A DNA stretch of 64,000 nucleotides, taken from assembly GCA_022841665.1 (NCBI GenBank), contig JALHRB010000008.1:1-64000 (forward strand). The letters are read 5' to 3'. This stretch comes from Pseudolabrys sp. Lineage in GTDB: Bacteria; Pseudomonadota; Alphaproteobacteria; Rhizobiales; Xanthobacteraceae. The notes below the pieces were generated by a model that was not told where the DNA came from, made no database searches, and worked only from the letters and a program-made list of their open reading frames with translations. Below are positions 52,088 to 60,937 of this stretch, piece after piece. Numbering within the stretch: the first letter of the stretch is position 1; each line of letters opens with the position of its first letter. Position numbers and translations under genes: made by a program.

Positions 52088-52186
52088 CCCTGAAAGGGGG
52101 AGGGTCGGGGGTCTACGACGGCGCGCGATTGACCCCCACCCGTCCGCCTTCGCTCCGCTTTGGCGGACGACCTCCCCCTTTCAGGG
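52088..52186. repeat. 99-base inverted-repeat element (CCCTGAAAGGGGGAGG arms)
   Basis: Perfect 16-base arms CCCTGAAAGGGGGAGG (52088-52103) and CCTCCCCCTTTCAGGG (52171-52186) enclose a GC-rich centre with its own GTCCGCC/GGCGGAC hairpin. It resembles dispersed intergenic palindromes of Rhizobiales. It lies between convergent genes and its right arm supplies the stop codon of lpxXL. Confidence 0.8.
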
Positions 52187-53137
52187 GGAGGTGGAAGAAA
52201 GCGCGTCATCTTCCGGCCGCCAACGGCGGTGCAGCCACAGCCACTGCTCAGGGTGCTCGCGCACCCAGCCCTCGATGACGGACATGATGTTCTGCATGGT
52301 GCCGGCGATGTCGACCATGCCGTCGGAGCTACGGACGGGCATGATTTCCTCGGTCAACTCGGCGCGGAAGCGGTTGCCCGGCAGCCTGACGATGCGGGTG
52401 CCGTGGATCGGGCAGTCGAAGTGCTGTGCCAGCCGCGCGATCAGCGGATTGGCGCGGGTTTTTTGGCCGAAGAAGGTCACCTCGACGCCGCGCACATAAT
52501 ACTGATCGACCAGCATGCCGACATGCGCCCCGCGCTCCAGCGCCTGCGACAGCTTCAGCGGCGCGTCGAGCCCGGTGGAGATCATATCGCCCATGAGGGC
52601 ATTGCGAGTTTCGCTGATCCAAGCGTTCAGACGTGGAATGTTCGGGCGCCGGTACAACACCGCGCTATCCATCTTGTAGGTGGAGGCGGCGATGGCCGGT
52701 AGCTCCCAATTCGCCAGATGCGCCGCGAAAATCAGGGCAGGGCGGTCGTCGCGCAGCAGTGTGCGGAAGCGCTCGATGTCGGCATCGCGCAACTCGATGC
52801 GGCCGGGCCGGTCGGGATAGTCGGGGTCCCAGTCCCACAGCCGGTCGAGGTGCGCGAACTCGGCGCCCATGCGGCCGAGATTGTCCCAGACGCCGCGCAC
52901 GATGGTCTCGATCTCGGCCGGCGACTTTTCTGGAAATGCGGCGGTGAGTTGCGTGCGCGCGATGCGATTCTCGCGAAACAGCGGCCCAATGGTGCGCATG
53001 AAGCCGCCGGCCGCATTGGTCAGCGTGTCCGGATTGAACAGGCGCAGGAGCTTGAGCAGGCCGACCGCAACCGATCCGACCAAGGCGTCTCCGGCGCGCT
53101 TGAGGCCGCGGCGTAAACGTCGCTTGATCGTGCTCAT
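52181..53137 (-). CDS. lpxXL: Lipid A very-long-chain acyltransferase LpxXL
   Basis: A 318-residue inner-membrane acyltransferase of the LpxL/HtrB family. The catalytic H-x4-E is His140 to Glu145 in AAHLANWELP. Context identifies it as LpxXL, which moves the 27-hydroxyoctacosanoyl chain from AcpXL to lipid A: it ends the acpXL cluster in rhizobial gene order, 15 bases after adh2XL. The last codons (STSP and stop) fall in the repeat at 52088-52186, so the C-terminus may be recently changed. Confidence 0.93.
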   Translation of the reverse strand: MSTIKRRLRRGLKRAGDALVGSVAVGLLKLLRLFNPDTLTNAAGGFMRTIGPLFRENRIARTQLTAAFPEKSPAEIETIVRGVWDNLGRMGAEFAHLDRLWDWDPDYPDRPGRIELRDADIERFRTLLRDDRPALIFAAHLANWELPAIAASTYKMDSAVLYRRPNIPRLNAWISETRNALMGDMISTGLDAPLKLSQALERGAHVGMLVDQYYVRGVEVTFFGQKTRANPLIARLAQHFDCPIHGTRIVRLPGNRFRAELTEEIMPVRSSDGMVDIAGTMQNIMSVIEGWVREHPEQWLWLHRRWRPEDDALSSTSP

Positions 53138-53152
53138 GCTGCGTCGTCCGGG

Positions 53153-54175
53153 CTAGAAATGGACGATGACCTTGCCGAACACCTGCCGGCTTTCGATGCG
53201 CGCGAGGCCTTTCTCGAAGTCGGCGAGCGCAAACTCGGAATCGATGATGGCGCCCATGCCCGCCGCCATCTTCGACAGGCTGTCGCGGATGTTCTGGATG
53301 CGGCAGCCGAACGAGCCGAGGATCTTGTACTGCTGCTGGAAGAGCTGCATGAGGTTGATGGTCACGGTCGGCCCGGCGGTCGAACCGCAGGTGACCAGCC
53401 GCCCGCCGCGCTTCAGGACCAGCAGCGAGCCGTTGAAGCCCTCGCCGCCGACGTGCTCGAACACCACGTCGACGCCCTTCTTGGCAGTGAGCTTGCGGGT
53501 GACGCCCTCGAAGCGATCGGTCTTGTAGTTGATCACGTGGTCGGCGCCGAGGGCCTTCGCCTTCTCCGCCTTGGCGTCGTCGCCGACGGTGGTGATGACG
53601 GTGCAGCCGAGCGCCTTGGCCATCTTGATCGCCACCGAGCCGATGCCGGAACCGGCGGCGTGCACGAGGATGGTCTCGCCGGGCTTGAGCTTGGCGTTGT
53701 CGAACAGCATGTGCTCGGTGGTGCCGAAGGCGATCGGCGCGCAGGCGGCGTCGCGGAAGCTGACGCCTTGCGGCACCGGCACGACAAGCCGCGCCGGCAG
53801 GTTGATGAGCTCGCGCGCGAAGCCGTCGATATGGAAGCCCATGATGCCGGCGACGTTTTCGCAGAGATTATCGCGGCCTTCCTTGCAGTTGGCGCAATGC
53901 CCGCAGGTCATCGCGCCGTACATGACGACCTTGTCGCCCGCCTTGAAATTCTTCACGCCCGCGCCAGCGGCCGCAATCTCGCCGGAGGCTTCGGCGCCGA
54001 CGACCAGCGGCAGCTTGCGCTTGGCGAAGGCCATGCCGCGGAAGCCCCAGAGGTCGAGATGGTTCAGCCCGACCGCCTTGATGCGCACCTGCACCTCGCC
54101 GTCGCCCGGCGGGGGCGGGGCGGGGATGTCGGCCAGTTCGAGCTTGCGGTCGCCGATGAGCTGGAGTGCGCGCAT
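53153..54175 (-). CDS. Zinc-dependent dehydrogenase/enoyl reductase of the VLCFA cluster (Adh2XL)
   Basis: A 340-residue medium-chain dehydrogenase. The catalytic-domain segment VVGAEASGEIAAAGAGV, the structural-zinc cysteines in CGHCANCKEGRDNLC, and the NAD(P) motif HAAGSGIGSVAIKMAKALG are clear. In rhizobia the same position holds the adh2XL gene, thought to act as enoyl-ACP reductase in very-long-chain hydroxy fatty acid synthesis. ATG 54175 is likely; a TTG frame reaches 54190. Confidence 0.9.
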   Translation of the reverse strand: MRALQLIGDRKLELADIPAPPPPGDGEVQVRIKAVGLNHLDLWGFRGMAFAKRKLPLVVGAEASGEIAAAGAGVKNFKAGDKVVMYGAMTCGHCANCKEGRDNLCENVAGIMGFHIDGFARELINLPARLVVPVPQGVSFRDAACAPIAFGTTEHMLFDNAKLKPGETILVHAAGSGIGSVAIKMAKALGCTVITTVGDDAKAEKAKALGADHVINYKTDRFEGVTRKLTAKKGVDVVFEHVGGEGFNGSLLVLKRGGRLVTCGSTAGPTVTINLMQLFQQQYKILGSFGCRIQNIRDSLSKMAAGMGAIIDSEFALADFEKGLARIESRQVFGKVIVHF

Positions 54176-54200
54176 GGGATGAATGGACAAGCGCGGCCGG

Positions 54201-55469
54201 TTAGGCCGGCTCGAGCCCCATGACGAGCGAGACGTTCTGCCCGCCGAAGCCGAATGAATTCGAGATGGCGTGCCGCACGCGCGCGTCGCGCGCCTTGTTC
54301 GGCACCACGTCGAGCGGGATGGCCGGGTCGGGCATGTCGTAGTTGATTGTCGGGGGTATGCGCTGGTTCTGGAGCGTCAGCAGCGAAAACACCGCCTCCA
54401 CCGCGCCGGCCGCCGACAAGGTGTGGCCGATCATCGACTTGTTCGACGAGATCGGGAGGCTCTTCATGCGCTCGCCGAAAACGGTCGAGCAGCCGAGATA
54501 CTCCATTTTGTCGTTTTCCGGAGTCGAGGTGCCGTGCGCGTTCACGTAGTCGATGTCGTCGGGTACGAGGCCGGCGTCGTTGATGGCGCTTTTGATGCAG
54601 CCGATGATCGGCTTACCATCCGGGCTCGATCGCGTGCGGTGGAAGGCGTCGGTCATCTCGCCGCAGCCTTCCAGAATGCCGAGGATCTTGGCCCCGCGCG
54701 CATTGGCCGTGTCGTAGTTCTCCAGCACCAGCGCGCCCGAGCCTTCGGCCATGACGAATCCGTCGCGGGTCTTGGAGAAGGGGCGTGCCGCCTTTTCCGG
54801 CGGATCGTTCTGCGTCGACAGCGCCGACAGCAGGGAGAAGCGGATCACGGCTTCCGGATTGATCGAGCCGTCGGTGCCGACGCAGAGGGCGGCGTCGGTC
54901 TCGCCGCGGCGGATGGCCTCGACGCCGAGCTGGATCGCGGTCGCGCCGGAAGCGCAGGCCGTCGACAGCGAGATCGGCGAGCCGCGGGTACCGAATTTCT
55001 CGGCCAGGTGATCGGCAACCGAGCCGAGCAGAAAGCGGCGGTGAAAGGCGGGAAACTGCGCGCTCACGCGCAGCAAGTCGGCATAGGTGATCTTGTCGTT
55101 GGCGCCGGATTCGCGGGCGACCTCACGCCGTTGCGGCCATTCCATTTCGATCGGCGGCACGGCGAGGAAGAGGGGGCCTGGAAATGCGCCGCGTCCGCCG
55201 ATGCCGGATTGCGCAATCGCTTCTTCGGCAGCGATGTCGGCGAAGCTCTCGGTGAGGCCTGCGGCCGACTCGTGCGGCGGCAGGAAATCGATGGTGCCGG
55301 CGATGCGCGTCTTAAGCCCGTCGGTCGGAAAGCGGGTAATGGCGCGAATGCCGGATTCGCCGGCGGTGAGCTTGGCCCAGTTGTCGGTCTTGCCGGCGCC
55401 GAGCGAGGTGATCACGCCCAGGCCGGTGACGGCGACGATCGGGCGGCCCTGCTTGTCGGTGGATGCCAT
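54201..55469 (-). CDS. fabF1XL: Beta-ketoacyl-ACP synthase FabF1XL
   Basis: A 422-residue condensing enzyme with a complete Cys-His-His triad: Cys172 in STACASGATA, His312 in HGTSTPEND and His349 in NKSMIGHTLSAAG. Assigned as the active elongation synthase of the very-long-chain acyl cluster by gene order. GGAG is 10 bases upstream of ATG 55469. The second KAS-like gene lies 13 bases upstream. Confidence 0.94.
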   Translation of the reverse strand: MASTDKQGRPIVAVTGLGVITSLGAGKTDNWAKLTAGESGIRAITRFPTDGLKTRIAGTIDFLPPHESAAGLTESFADIAAEEAIAQSGIGGRGAFPGPLFLAVPPIEMEWPQRREVARESGANDKITYADLLRVSAQFPAFHRRFLLGSVADHLAEKFGTRGSPISLSTACASGATAIQLGVEAIRRGETDAALCVGTDGSINPEAVIRFSLLSALSTQNDPPEKAARPFSKTRDGFVMAEGSGALVLENYDTANARGAKILGILEGCGEMTDAFHRTRSSPDGKPIIGCIKSAINDAGLVPDDIDYVNAHGTSTPENDKMEYLGCSTVFGERMKSLPISSNKSMIGHTLSAAGAVEAVFSLLTLQNQRIPPTINYDMPDPAIPLDVVPNKARDARVRHAISNSFGFGGQNVSLVMGLEPA

Positions 55470-55482
55470 CGCGCGCTCTCCT

Positions 55483-56670
55483 TCAACCGATCTTTTCAAC
55501 CAGCGCCAAGCCTTCGCCCCGCCAATGTCCGACGCCGGTGACGACCACCTGGCGCAAATCTTCCTTCATCGGCTTCTCGAAGCCCGACGAGTCGCTGGGT
55601 GGAAACAGCCTACCATGCCCAACCGCGATCGCGGCCAGCGCCAAATTCATCGTGAATTGCGGCTCCAGCCCATGGCCGAGATATGTGCCTGTGGCGCGCA
55701 CGGCAAGGTCGGGATGCTGTGTCAGAAACGTGCGCTCGTCGGCGGTGGCCGGTTCTGCACCCGTGGCGCCCGACAGCACGGCGGCATGGCCGTCTTGCAC
55801 CTTGTCCTTGACCTTGTCCCACAGCCGCGTCAGCGCGCCCAGGGCTGCGCCCGGCGCGCGGTCGGCGCGGTCGGAGACGACCGCCGCAAGCCGCGCGATC
55901 GGCTTGGCGCCGCGCGCTTTGGCGTGCTCGCTCGCCTCGATCACCAGGAAGGCGCCGAGCGAGCCGAGCGCAAAGCCGGCGCCGTTGCGCTGCCAGATCG
56001 GCTTCAATTCGTTCTTCAGCGCCATATTGGCGAATTCGTACAGCATCAGCAGGTCCGGCCGCTCGCCATTGTGCGAGCCGCCGACCAACGCGATGTCGCT
56101 CTGCCCGGCGCCGATGCGCGCATGCGCGATGCGCACGGCATCGATGCCGGCGCTTTCCTCGCCCATGAAGGTACGCGAGGAGCCGGTCACGCCGTGCACG
56201 ATGGAAATATTGCCGGCGAGCAGATTGGACAATTGCGCCAGGAAGAGGGTGGGGCGCAGGTCGCTCATCAGCCGTTCGTTCAAGAAAGCGTCCGGATCGG
56301 CCGCATTCTTGATGCCACTGAGAATATTCGAATCGACCGCCAGATCGCGCTCACCACCGCCAGCGGCGACGATCATGTCCATGCGCGAGAGCAGCTCGGG
56401 CTTGCCCTTCACGCCGGCCGAGTCGAGCGCAAGCCCGGCCGCGTAGGTGCCGATGCGCTGCCAATTCTCCATTTGGCGTTGTTCTTTTTTGGAGATCTGC
56501 GCGTCAAAGTTGATCGACGCCAGCGGATGCACGACGAAGGGTGCGAACGTCGTCGTGTCCGCGGCCGGCCTGGCCTCGGTCAGCTTCTGCCAATGCGCCT
56601 CGGGGCCTTCGCCGAGGCAGGAGACGATTCCGATGCCGGTGATCCAGGTTTCCCGCTCCGTGTCAGCCAT
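55483..56670 (-). CDS. fabF2XL: KAS-like protein FabF2XL lacking catalytic residues
   Basis: A 395-residue thiolase-fold protein of the FabF family. At the position of the active Cys it reads VHGVTGSSRTF, with no Cys; the first His motif is replaced by SGATGAEPATADE; a Gly-His remains in YLGHGLEPQF. This recalls the chain-length factor of type II polyketide systems, so it may form a heterodimer with FabF1XL (inference). ATG 56670 overlaps the fabZXL end by 8 bases. Confidence 0.9.
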   Translation of the reverse strand: MADTERETWITGIGIVSCLGEGPEAHWQKLTEARPAADTTTFAPFVVHPLASINFDAQISKKEQRQMENWQRIGTYAAGLALDSAGVKGKPELLSRMDMIVAAGGGERDLAVDSNILSGIKNAADPDAFLNERLMSDLRPTLFLAQLSNLLAGNISIVHGVTGSSRTFMGEESAGIDAVRIAHARIGAGQSDIALVGGSHNGERPDLLMLYEFANMALKNELKPIWQRNGAGFALGSLGAFLVIEASEHAKARGAKPIARLAAVVSDRADRAPGAALGALTRLWDKVKDKVQDGHAAVLSGATGAEPATADERTFLTQHPDLAVRATGTYLGHGLEPQFTMNLALAAIAVGHGRLFPPSDSSGFEKPMKEDLRQVVVTGVGHWRGEGLALVEKIG

Positions 56671-57136
56671 TGGCAGGGACCTCGCTGGCAAAGCCGACGC
56701 GCTCGGCCATCTTGCGCATGGCGAGGCGCATTTCGTCGTTCGGGAAGTCGAGAATGCGCAAGGTCAGCGACGCGTCGCAAATAGTCTTGCGGCCCATGCT
56801 GATCTTGGCCTCGGTCATCGCGTAGCCGGAACCGTCATGGGTGATCCGCGCCTGGATCGCGAGTACGTTCCCGGGCGTGACGAAGGTGCGGAATTTGGCG
56901 TCCTTGGCGGCGGCGAGGAACGCCATTCTCTGGAAATTGTTGGCAGCGGCGACCAGCCAGCCCGACGTTTGCGCCATGGCCTCCAGCAGCAAAACGCCCG
57001 GCATCAGCGGGTAGCCGGGAAAATGGCCTTCGAAGATTGTGCTTTCAGTCGGGACCGTAGCCTCGGTGCTGATCGTGCGGTCGGCGAGACTGATGTCGAC
57101 GACCCGGTCGATCAGCTGGAAGTACTCGAGACGCAT
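56663..57136 (-). CDS. fabZXL: 3-hydroxyacyl-ACP dehydratase FabZXL
   Basis: A 157-residue hotdog-fold dehydratase. Catalytic His38 lies in EGHFPGYPLMPG and Glu52 in LLEAMAQTSGW, the FabZ pattern. GGGAG precedes ATG 57136; a longer frame to 57253 is in the acpXL gene. The cluster position (second after acpXL) matches rhizobial fabZXL, which works in making the C28 hydroxy acyl chain. Confidence 0.94.
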   Translation of the reverse strand: MRLEYFQLIDRVVDISLADRTISTEATVPTESTIFEGHFPGYPLMPGVLLLEAMAQTSGWLVAAANNFQRMAFLAAAKDAKFRTFVTPGNVLAIQARITHDGSGYAMTEAKISMGRKTICDASLTLRILDFPNDEMRLAMRKMAERVGFASEVPANG

Positions 57137-57147
57137 GTGCTCCCGCT

Positions 57148-57429
57148 TCAGGCTCCCTTGGCCGCGACCAACTCGTCGATGCGGGCGCTGAGGTTCTTCA
57201 ACACGAAGTACTGGTCGGTGGTGGCCTTGCCGTCGTTGACTTCCTGGGTCCACTGCTCGAGCGGCAGTTTAATGCCGAAGGCCTTGTCGATGGCGAAGGC
57301 AATATCCAGGAAGTCCAGGCTGTCGATGCCCAGATCGTTAATGGCGTGGCTTTCCGGGGTGATGGAATCGCGCGGGATATCGCAGGTCTCGGCGATGATA
57401 TTGGCGATGGTATCGAACGTCGAGGACAT
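57148..57429 (-). CDS. acpXL: Specialised acyl carrier protein AcpXL
   Basis: A 93-residue acyl carrier protein for very-long-chain fatty acids. The 4'-phosphopantetheine Ser37 is in GIDSLDFLD. It carries the longer C-terminal helix ([20 protein letters not shown]) that separates AcpXL from the housekeeping AcpP. It is the first gene of the cluster, with a 199-base upstream region. Confidence 0.95.
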
Positions 57430-57628
57430 CGTTAACTCTCTGATTGATAAGGAGTTCTTGCGAATGGACGGCCCGCGCGCCCGGTCCTCGCGCAACAGCC
57501 CCCCTGGCCCGGCGTCACGCCGGTATGCGGTCGGCTGCCCGTATAGCGAAGCAGCGGGGTAAGTTCAATGGCGGCGGGTATTTGACGGACGAAACTGGCT
57601 AACGGCGGGCTTTGGCTGTTCCGCTGCC

Positions 57629-57934
57629 TCACCAACGGTCTTTAGTGACCTCCACGGGGGTGCAGCCGCGGCGGCCCGAAAGCACGCAATCCTGATTCTT
57701 GCGCATCTTGGCCATGGTGTCGGCCAGCCAAAGACCGCCGCCAATAAGCGCGATCACGAAAACGAAGGCCACGGCGTTGACGATCATGCGATGCCGGTAG
57801 TCGTCCGGCTCGTCCCCGCCCTCGTATTTGGCAAGGTTTTCGACCGGCGGGGCGGGCGGCCGCGCGCCGGGCCGGCCGCGCCGGAAATCCACCACGCGCG
57901 CGTCGTCGGATGAGGGAGGGTCTTTAGGAGCCAT
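57629..57934 (-). CDS. Small single-span membrane protein, function unknown
   Basis: A 101-residue protein with a Pro/Arg-rich cytosolic N-terminus (FRRGRPGARPPAPPVENLA), one helix (VAFVFVIALIGGGLWLADTM), then a short Cys-containing tail with two Cys (CVLSGRRGC). No known family is recognised, though such proteins occur near lipid A genes in related genomes (recollection). It is monocistronic. Confidence 0.75.
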   Translation of the reverse strand: MAPKDPPSSDDARVVDFRRGRPGARPPAPPVENLAKYEGGDEPDDYRHRMIVNAVAFVFVIALIGGGLWLADTMAKMRKNQDCVLSGRRGCTPVEVTKDRW

Positions 57935-58118: not shown

Positions 58119-59987
58119 ATGCGGTTACGCCACAGTCACGCGGGGCCGGGAGCTGCAAAAAAGAACAGGGCTCTGCTGTCGCCGAGAGCGACCCTAAACA
58201 GGGCGCTCCGGTGGTGGTTTTCGGCCGCTCTGCTGTGCGGGGCGGTGTGGGGGATGCTGGGGAAGGACTTGTATCCAACCGTCACGTTGCTCGGGCATGT
58301 CTTCGACCTGTCCGGCTTAGCCAAGGTCACGTCGCTCCTTATTCTGCCGTTTGCGCATGAGGATCTCGCCATCCTCTTCGGCGGCTTTATCGTCACCAAC
58401 AATCTGATGCCGGTCGGCCTGGTGGCGTTAAGCCTCTACGGCGGCATGGTGGCGAGCGATTTCGCGCTCTACGGCATTGGCGCCGCGGCGCGCTATATCC
58501 CGTGGCTCAGCCGCTACGCGGTCGACGACCGTGTGCTGCGCTTCGGGGATACGCTCAAGCGCAACGTGTTCGGACTGGTGGCGCTGTGCCGCGTGGTGCC
58601 CGGCATCGTCTTCGTCGCCTTCGTCGCCTGCGGCTGGGCGCGCGTGTCGCTCGTGCGTTTCACTGCGGCGAGCCTGGTCGTCTCGGCGCTTTACCTGCCC
58701 TTGATGCTCTATCTGGTCGTGATGTTCGGGGACGCCCTCGAAGACCAATTCGGCATGTGGGCTTGGCCGCTGCTCTTCGTCGCCCTTGCCGCCAGCGGGT
58801 TTGCACGCAAGCGGGTCTTCGCCTTCGGCGAGGCGGCGGCCTCCGAAGCAAGCGTTGCCGACGTCGCGCTGCCGCAGTCGTGGTTCGGCATGCCGCCGTT
58901 GTCGCGCGCCGACCGCAAGGTCGCCGCGGCCGAGCGCATTCCGCCGACATTGTTCTACCTGCCGCTGCTCGCCAACTGGATCAGGCTCGGTATCCGCCAT
59001 CGCTCGCTCACCCTGCCGACGGCGGCGAACCCCGCCATCTTCACCGGCGGCATGTGGGGCGAATCCAAGAGCTCCTACTTCAACGACGTCGGCCAGGGCG
59101 AGCGCTCCTGGATCGCCGGCTATGTCGTGATCGAGCGCGGGCCGCGCACGGTCGGTTCGGATATCGAATGCGCCGAGCAAGCCCTTGCGGAGGCCGGACT
59201 CGACTACCCGTTGATCGCCAAGCCCGACATCGGCTGGCACGGTCATGGCGTGCGCCTGATCGAGGACCGCACGCAGCTTGGCGCCTATATCGCAGACTAT
59301 CCGCGCGCGACGCCGCTGATGCTGCAGCGATACGTGCCGCATGCGGCGGAGGCGGCGGTACTTTATGCGCGGTTGCCGGGCGAGCCGCGCGGCCGCGTGC
59401 TCTCGCTCACCTTCCGCTATACGCCGCACGTGGTCGGCAACGGACGCGCGAGCCTGCGCCAGCTCATCGCCGCCGACGCGCGCGCGCAGTGGAAGTCTGC
59501 GTTGCACCTCGGCATCGACCCCAGCCATCGCGGCATCGACGCGCAGGCCCTTGAGCGCGTGCCGGAGCGCGGCGAGGTGGTGCGGCTGGCGCTGATCGGC
59601 AACCAGCGCGCCGGCGCGCTCTACCGCGACGGCCGCCGCCACATCACCGCGGCGTTGGAAGCGCGCTTTGACGGCATTGCCCGCAGCATGACCGAATTCC
59701 ATTACGGCCGCTTCGACCTGCGCTTTGAGTCGGTGGACGGCCTCATGCGTGGCGAGAATTTCTCCATTGTCGAGATCAACGGCATCGGAGGGGAAGCGAT
59801 CGACTGCTGGGATCCGCACCTCACCGTGCGCGAGGTCTACCGGCGCCTGGCGGACCAGCAGGAACTGCTATTCCTGATCGGCCAGCGCAACCGCGCACGC
59901 GGCTTCCGGCCGACTGCGATTCGCGAGTTCGTCGGCAGCCTGATACGGCAAGGTCAGTTGATTAAGCGCTATCCGGCTTCGACCTGA
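58119..59987 (+). CDS. VTT/DedA membrane domain fused to an ATP-grasp domain
   Basis: A 622-residue fusion. Residues about 50-230 are a VTT/DedA-like membrane domain with FAHEDLAILFGGF and CRVVPGIVFVAF, the family's charged and Pro-Gly motifs. About 300-600 is an ATP-grasp domain: Lys368 in LIAKPDIGWHGHG, a CphA-like HVVGNGRASLRQLI, and the metal-binding FSIVEINGIGGEAIDCWD at the end. A TTG at 58107 is an alternative start. It probably uses ATP to ligate a carboxylate or amine to a membrane lipid or its head group (inference). It stands between the AcpXL cluster and the copper genes. Confidence 0.88.
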   Translation: MRLRHSHAGPGAAKKNRALLSPRATLNRALRWWFSAALLCGAVWGMLGKDLYPTVTLLGHVFDLSGLAKVTSLLILPFAHEDLAILFGGFIVTNNLMPVGLVALSLYGGMVASDFALYGIGAAARYIPWLSRYAVDDRVLRFGDTLKRNVFGLVALCRVVPGIVFVAFVACGWARVSLVRFTAASLVVSALYLPLMLYLVVMFGDALEDQFGMWAWPLLFVALAASGFARKRVFAFGEAAASEASVADVALPQSWFGMPPLSRADRKVAAAERIPPTLFYLPLLANWIRLGIRHRSLTLPTAANPAIFTGGMWGESKSSYFNDVGQGERSWIAGYVVIERGPRTVGSDIECAEQALAEAGLDYPLIAKPDIGWHGHGVRLIEDRTQLGAYIADYPRATPLMLQRYVPHAAEAAVLYARLPGEPRGRVLSLTFRYTPHVVGNGRASLRQLIAADARAQWKSALHLGIDPSHRGIDAQALERVPERGEVVRLALIGNQRAGALYRDGRRHITAALEARFDGIARSMTEFHYGRFDLRFESVDGLMRGENFSIVEINGIGGEAIDCWDPHLTVREVYRRLADQQELLFLIGQRNRARGFRPTAIREFVGSLIRQGQLIKRYPAST

Positions 59988-60454: not shown

Positions 60455-60937
60455 ATGACTCGCTTTGCTTTCATTCTCGCCGTCTTTGCCATCGCCGTCT
60501 TGCCGGCACGGGCCGAAGACGTCACCGCCGGCAGTCTCAAGATCGCGTCCCCTTGGGTGCGCGCCACGCCCAAGAGCGCCAGCGTCGGCGGCGGCTACAT
60601 GAAGATCACCAACAACGGGACCGCGCCCGACCGCCTGGTCGGCGGAGCATCGCCCGTATCCAGCCGCTTCGAAGTGCACGAGATGGCCGTCGTGGACGGC
60701 ATCATGAAGATGCGCGGGCTGCCACAAGGCCTCGAGATCAAGCCGGGGCAGACGCTTGAGCTCAAGCCGGGCGGCTACCATGTGATGTTCTTGGGATTGA
60801 ACCGCCAGCTCATGCAGGGCGAGAAGGTCAAAGCCACGCTGCAATTCGAGAAGGCCGGCAAGGTCGACGTCGAGTTCGCCGTCGAAGGCATCGGCGCGCA
60901 GAGCGGCGGCAGTCATTCGGGCGGCATGAAGCACTAG
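60455..60937 (+). CDS. Periplasmic copper chaperone PCu(A)C
   Basis: A 160-residue exported cupredoxin-like chaperone that delivers Cu(I) to the CuA or CuB site of cytochrome oxidase. Ligands His75 and Met77 (VHEMAVVDG), Met86, and His109 and Met111 (GGYHVMFLG) are in family order. Signal peptide cleavage is near ARAED. A His/Gly-rich tail (SGGSHSGGMKH) may also bind metal. GGAG precedes ATG 60455. Confidence 0.93.
   Translation: MTRFAFILAVFAIAVLPARAEDVTAGSLKIASPWVRATPKSASVGGGYMKITNNGTAPDRLVGGASPVSSRFEVHEMAVVDGIMKMRGLPQGLEIKPGQTLELKPGGYHVMFLGLNRQLMQGEKVKATLQFEKAGKVDVEFAVEGIGAQSGGSHSGGMKH

Follow-up and report, generated by a model that had tools for sequence, protein, structure and literature searches.

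The window, ie the whole stretch of 64,000 nucleotides that was analysed, carries a gene in which a VTT/DedA membrane domain is joined to an ATP-grasp ligase (Table 1). The original prediction placed it at 58119-59987 on the forward strand and gave it 622 residues. A single uninterrupted open frame does hold both halves over that interval, but the predicted start and length did not stand: judged from the sequences of relatives, the true start is most likely the TTG at 58269, and the protein would then have 572 amino acids. A TTG preceded by a G-rich, Shine-Dalgarno-like stretch is aligned to position 58269 in 21 of the 28 relatives printed, a tally biased towards finding one because the script sought the nearest start codon. 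Six relatives (L024, L025, L027, L030, L031 and L034) have an in-frame stop no more than two codons upstream of the aligned TTG. Matches to the 622-residue reading start at residues 31-68 in 28 of the 32 rows of fused homologues, the exceptions being L027, L029 and L041 (longer match crosses a stop) and L048 (truncated where the contig ends). From the shared TTG, the upstream stops and the starting points of the matches, the gene most likely spans 58269-59987; the ATG at 58119 was rejected on the first two.

Table 1. Features of the fusion gene and its surroundings in the window
Feature	Position	Strand or orientation	Basis or remark
Lipid A very-long-chain cluster	52181-57495	opposite strand	AcpXL, FabZ-like, two KAS, alcohol dehydrogenase-like, LpxXL-type acyltransferase
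Small membrane-protein-like ORF	57629-57934	divergent from fusion	no Pfam/NCBIfam match; recurs in 8 relatives' loci
In-frame stretch of first reading, most likely untranslated	58119-58268	+	relatives' TTG and upstream stops
G-rich Shine-Dalgarno-like ggggaagg	about 58259-58266	+	before TTG 58269
Corrected CDS, VTT/DedA + ATP-grasp ligase (most likely start)	58269-59987	+	TTG start, 572 aa; conserved TTG, upstream stops in relatives, 32-row alignment A1
VTT/DedA domain	58296-58820	+	own HMM match; Pfam VTT_dom residues 36-150, 24.9 bits, under cut-off
ATP-grasp ligase region	58899-59981	+	own HMM match; profile match to 7ta5, 8fxh, 7wac; Foldseek
Hydrophobic helix 226-243, possible membrane anchor	58944-58997	+	start of ATP-grasp region; predicted model
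Family motif GGMWGESK, residues 260-267	59046-59069	+	G261 in 114, E265 in 111, K267 in 114 of 114 sequences
Lys318, aligned with ATP-binding lysine of ATP-grasp enzymes	59220-59222	+	114/114; K of VVVKP in 7ta5
Arg481-Phe-Asp483 and Glu502-x-Asn504, metal and phosphate ligands by analogy	59709-59780	+	EIN aligned with 7ta5
117-aa ORF	from 60029		between fusion and PCu(A)C gene
Copper chaperone PCu(A)C gene	60455-60937	downstream of fusion	Pfam 1.2e-38

The suspicion that the frame joins two genes through a sequencing or assembly error was raised with the prediction, and separate VTT and ATP-grasp genes are the commoner arrangement elsewhere. However, the identical fusion is found full-length in 16 of the 23 other genomes of the genus (66-77% identity), in MAGs from numerous projects and on finished Azospirillum plasmids. 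Such conservation shows the fusion to be real and refutes a joining error, which retains practically no probability. Five of the 16 same-genus matches cross one stop; in the two inspected (L003/L024 and L004/L025) the stop precedes the TTG.

The fusion had also been tied to the adjoining lipid A long-chain cluster. The cluster is indeed present, but the functional link was not supported, since fused homologues on Azospirillum plasmids have other neighbours and no lipid A cluster nearby. A lipid A role could not be argued from synteny on these grounds, and the proximity of the cluster appears to be no more than local synteny. Decoration of lipid A or another part of the lipopolysaccharide, which the AcpXL/FabZ/KAS/LpxXL genes would suggest, is very unlikely for the same reason. 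In Azospirillum a DUF1345 membrane protein gene lies directly after the fused gene (L063 11781-12431; L106 7920-8573), and a relative of that gene follows the fused gene in G272.

Conserved residues and predicted structure of the two halves

DedA/VTT proteins are lipid translocators, with undecaprenyl phosphate and glycerophospholipids such as phosphatidylethanolamine (PE) as known substrates. The 622-residue reading gave no Pfam VTT match; the 572-residue protein matches VTT_dom (PF09335) with E 3e-5 and 24.9 bits, against a gathering cut-off of 33.9. Fused homologues above this cut-off are L147 (43.4 bits), L123 (42.1) and L063 (39.1); separate VTT partners L068 and L148 also exceed it, and L110 falls just under it at 33.8 bits. 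The VTT motifs lie within the first 180 residues of the 32 rows of alignment A1 and are followed by a linker. An undecaprenyl phosphate transporter model matched the VTT halves with E 2.9e-16 (L196) and E 0.03 (window protein), all below curated cut-offs.

By its predicted fold and catalytic residues, the second half belongs to the ATP-grasp superfamily. The NCBIfam cyanophycin synthetase model matched the window protein with E 1.7e-4, and profile comparison with cyanophycin synthetase 2 (7ta5) gave E 9e-8. The full-length CphA model scored 19.8 bits against a cut-off of 850, with the match confined to the ATP-grasp part. Pfam ATP-grasp models remained below cut-off for the window protein, and the RimK model was above cut-off in the triple fusions described below. 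None of the 111 ungapped rows, out of 114 sequences, departs from R481, D483, E502 or N504, and a family consensus GG(M/L)xGEsK stands just ahead of the ATP-grasp core. The stretch corresponding to helix 226-243 is hydrophobic also in stand-alone Bacteroidota relatives, as judged visually in alignment A1. The predicted combination of VTT/DedA and CphA-like ATP-grasp domains in one chain, with intact signature residues, is thus borne out by the alignment and by the residue counts across 114 sequences. One fused relative, L050 (9959-11461, from a MAG without PF13444), has a missing stretch and altered catalytic residues (RFR, EITG) and so looks decayed.

An AlphaFold2 model had a mean pLDDT of 80.6 and a pTM of 0.66, the VTT half being less confident. 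The rows listed by Foldseek were ATP-grasp enzymes, the best being the ATP-grasp parts of cyanophycin synthetases (5e-10), followed by GshAB and D-Ala-D-Ala ligases. Whole-query TM-scores were low (about 0.3) because only the ATP-grasp half aligns, and among the 50 rows listed there was no DedA-fold match to the lower-confidence VTT half.

Distribution and gene partners

In the remaining genomes of the order there were six matches in 198, with G152 and G102 the only clear cases. An even draw of the Alphaproteobacteria gave the ATP-grasp half in 31 of 385 genomes, the window's own genome included; a 32nd match was VTT-only (G587, scored ATP-grasp-negative in this draw). Fifteen of 398 genomes in the phylum draw matched, one of them VTT-only, as did 28 of 72,556 plasmid records; 29 of 148 Bacteroidota genomes were positive, and a fused form was also found in a Fibrobacteres MAG (L051).

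Among 40 loci taken from the draws at class and phylum level, the VTT domain was fused in four (G272, G253 and G623, and G353 by Pfam), encoded by the gene immediately upstream in the same orientation in 31, and not found near the ATP-grasp gene in five (G260, G576, G308, G564 and G928), of which G308 and G564 were inspected over only 1.5 kb each side. This tally leaves out G294 (no locus) as well as G587 and G919, in which only the VTT domain matched. In Salinivibrio kushneri the VTT and ATP-grasp genes share 4 bp; on Paracoccus plasmids and in G152 they are convergently oriented. The ATP-grasp, VTT and hydrolase genes of Paracoccus denitrificans PD1222 are PDEN_RS24485, RS24475 and RS25810. 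Stand-alone ATP-grasp genes of Saprospiraceae had no VTT gene nearby and a LysE-type exporter gene downstream; in L052-L058 they are flanked by this gene and a MOSC-domain gene.

An alpha/beta-hydrolase gene stands beside the VTT/ATP-grasp pair in 11 of 29 class-draw loci, and also in Paracoccus and G152. The Ser-Asp-His triad is intact in all 15 separate hydrolases examined, and by visual inspection nine of 13 have a signal or lipobox at the N-terminus, the four without being those of Paracoccus and G152. In 12 of the 29 positive Bacteroidota a single open frame of 812-865 amino acids comprises an N-terminal hydrophobic segment, an alpha/beta-hydrolase, VTT and ATP-grasp. Pfam confirmed three domains in one of these triple fusions (L196); in L193, L195 and L203 two of the three exceeded the cut-off. 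All 12 triple fusions (L199-L210) have another residue in place of the catalytic serine of the hydrolase (Gly in 11, Lys in one), which rules out an active hydrolase half there, and a separate intact hydrolase gene lies near the fusion in 11 of the 12. No orthologue was found in the window's genome, where the best match had E 4e-11 against 1e-135 and 4e-117 for the controls G343 and G152. Use of the same hydrolase by the window's organism was therefore rejected, and the hydrolase is an accessory and not a core part of the system.

Outside the Alphaproteobacteria, genes resembling ornithine-lipid synthases recur as partners. An OlsF-like gene (GNAT domain PF13444 plus acyltransferase) lies nearby on the same strand in 10 of the 10 non-alphaproteobacterial genomes of the phylum draw, with 29-2307 bp between the domains, the usual order being VTT, ATP-grasp, DinB-like, TANGO2/NRDE-like, YHS and OlsF-like. 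In G623 such a gene lies about 40 bp upstream of the fused gene. An OlsB-like gene (NF052555, E 2.4e-51) begins 10 bp past the ATP-grasp gene on a Variovorax plasmid, and each of the 12 Bacteroidota triple fusions is preceded by OlsB-like and OlsA-like genes, 10 of them with an intervening DinB-like gene. Flanks common to 11 of these 12 loci make them two contexts rather than twelve. On a tree of the ATP-grasp half (77 hand-picked rows, near-duplicates omitted) the OlsF-bearing loci, G623, Variovorax and the triple fusions occupy separate places, G623 and Variovorax falling with the window in one 22-row group (100/99).

This operon partnership does not extend to the wide alphaproteobacterial loci: an OlsB/OlsF-like gene was absent from all 19 (L106-L124), from the vicinity of the window gene and, on two Salinivibrio plasmids, from the sequence up to 10 kb away. 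An OlsB is encoded at another place in the window's genome (371 bits against a curated cut-off of 320). PF13444 occurs in 30 of 31 ATP-grasp-positive Alphaproteobacteria against 223 of 354 others (p 3.7e-5) and in 23 of 29 positive Bacteroidota against 42 of 119 others (p 2.1e-5), both values uncorrected for genome size and kinship. Within the genus, fusion and PF13444 do not co-vary, because all 24 genomes (the window's included) have PF13444, including the seven without the fusion. ATP-grasp-positive genomes without PF13444 are G442, G948 and G949, plus six of the 29 Bacteroidota; the DinB and YHS neighbours are nevertheless kept in two of the Bacteroidota without it, G1000 and G1097.

Other neighbours recur. 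DinB-like, TANGO2/NRDE-like and YHS genes are found beside ATP-grasp in two phyla (L148-L156; Bacteroidota stand-alones L191, L192 and L197), and a YHS neighbour in four alphaproteobacterial loci (L096, L102, L117 and L119). In Variovorax and Komagataeibacter, genes for an iron-containing redox enzyme and a SAM methyltransferase lie upstream of ATP-grasp (L067 8110-9950; L070 8103-9957); the redox enzyme of L070 is Haem_oxygenas_2 by Pfam, and the two products are possibly further tailoring enzymes. The acyltransferase next to the Komagataeibacter gene (L070), at first taken as OlsA-like, is a lipid A acyltransferase by Pfam.

Proposed function

The original prediction that the protein acts on a lipid-linked substrate at the membrane is still the best reading. 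Since OlsB/OlsA- or OlsF-like genes share operons with relatives of the fusion in several lineages, the substrate can be narrowed: it is probably an ornithine-type aminolipid, which the VTT + ATP-grasp protein probably modifies and flips. Tested OlsB/A/F-like neighbours scored below NCBI equivalog cut-offs (eg 432 of 620, 135 of 320 and 175 of 320 bits) and the OlsF-like ones also match glycine-lipid enzyme models, which leaves room for a head group other than ornithine. We consider it quite probable that the fusion works in the OlsBA/OlsF aminolipid pathway, and on balance likely that it is a membrane enzyme of two domains serving an as yet undescribed aminolipid system, with ligation and translocation as the activities that we infer. 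For the individual parts, ligation of the aminolipid head group by the ATP-grasp half is slightly favoured, and a similarly modest preference can be given to movement of the aminolipid by the VTT half.

According to the proposed mechanism, the ATP-grasp half would act at the inner face of the inner membrane, using ATP and Mg, and would activate a carboxylate, belonging either to the aminolipid head group or to a small acid, as an acyl phosphate. It would join this to an amine, which could be that of a small molecule (amino acid, taurine) or of the head group, and the VTT/DedA half would then carry the aminolipid, once modified, across to the outer face. Where a lineage has the exported alpha/beta-hydrolase, the added group might be cleaved off again, as AcvB does with lysyl-PG made by LpiA.

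Ligase and translocator might instead act on another carrier, such as undecaprenyl phosphate or a PE-type glycerophospholipid, with the aminolipid operons reflecting a common envelope-stress response. Such substrates are known for DedA proteins, the VTT halves match the undecaprenyl phosphate transporter model, albeit below its curated cut-offs, and the alphaproteobacterial loci are without an adjacent aminolipid synthase. However, the adjacency of synthase genes in Bacteroidota, on the Variovorax plasmid and in the 10 non-alphaproteobacterial genomes is more specific than a stress response requires, and this alternative appears rather unlikely. It is also quite unlikely that the ATP-grasp half makes a soluble small molecule, eg a dipeptide osmolyte, which the VTT half exports, the aminolipid genes sharing an osmotic or phosphate signal. 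VTT proteins are lipid translocators and the hydrophobic helix in the ATP-grasp region is conserved, both of which argue against such a product, although the Variovorax ATP-grasp weakly matches N-acetylglutaminylglutamine synthetase (E 1e-4) and the Saprospiraceae loci have a LysE-type exporter gene after the ATP-grasp gene. Induction of a Vibrio OlsF by low salinity, as given in excerpts of PMC12186959, would also fit a soluble product; the same excerpts describe a functional OlsF pair in Vibrio cholerae, one of which is the last gene of a putative four-gene operon. An ornithine-type aminolipid is the substrate that we prefer.

Comparison with known systems

The original prediction named no characterised member of this architecture, and none was found described in the open-licence literature: ATP-grasp with VTT domain, SNARE-associated Golgi or DedA gave no description of such a system, DedA with ornithine lipid gave nothing, and ATP-grasp with ornithine lipid gave only a reference-list mention of ATP-grasp. 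Neither a route for aminolipids across the inner membrane nor a gene for head-group extension was found in the literature searched. The only current annotations in the gene set are 'VTT domain-containing protein' and 'D-alanine--D-alanine ligase'. It appears that two known superfamilies, VTT and ATP-grasp, are paired in a new and widespread system, the function of which we infer from genomes only. If the proposal is true, it would provide a gene for aminolipid head-group extension, as in taurine-ornithine lipid, together with a route across the inner membrane; it would make this an ATP-grasp enzyme acting on a membrane lipid and a DedA protein with a specific aminolipid cargo; and it would give the gene set, in several phyla, a function that can be put to the test. 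A review cited in PMC12493201 estimates the share of sequenced bacteria able to make ornithine lipids at about half, and excerpts of PMC12493201 tie these lipids to stress tolerance.

The adjacent and most fused forms share the Pfam VTT domain with UptA and other DedA/VTT proteins, but here the domain is fused to, or in an operon with, a ligase, and that of the window stays under the Pfam cut-off. The ATP-grasp domain of the cyanophycin synthetases CphA1 and CphA2 is the closest solved relative by sequence profile and Foldseek; unlike these enzymes, the window protein is without polymerising or Mur-ligase partner domains, is predicted to be membrane-bound and has other gene partners. OlsBA- and OlsF-like synthase genes are operon partners in several lineages, but these synthases build the lipid, whereas the window protein, which has no homology to them, would act afterwards. 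The kind of product expected is exemplified by the taurine-ornithine lipid (cerilipin) of Gluconobacter cerinus, an aminolipid whose head group is extended with an amine-bearing unit (PMC12493201, PMC4484230), although excerpts of these two papers name no gene for it.

MprF/LpiA with AcvB offers the nearest functional analogy, in that a single chain both alters the head group of a lipid and flips that lipid, as is proposed here. In Agrobacterium, according to excerpts of PMC13135905, the synthase-flippase LpiA is in an operon with AcvB, a periplasmic alpha/beta-fold hydrolase that reverses the modification, and the gene set of hydrolase, VTT and ATP-grasp mirrors this arrangement. The folds are unrelated: ATP-grasp takes the place of the aminoacyl-tRNA transferase and VTT that of the MprF flippase domain, and no model for either MprF-type domain was among the Pfam/NCBIfam matches of the window protein. 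The partners differ as well, being aminolipid genes, and the substrate is putative. The best reading by analogy is that the window protein would work like MprF/LpiA, yet is not a member of that family. We tentatively suggest, as a possibility somewhat short of likely, a dedicated head-group ligase-flippase for ornithine-type aminolipids, ie a convergent counterpart of MprF/LpiA built from ATP-grasp and DedA domains and accompanied in some lineages by an AcvB-like exported hydrolase.
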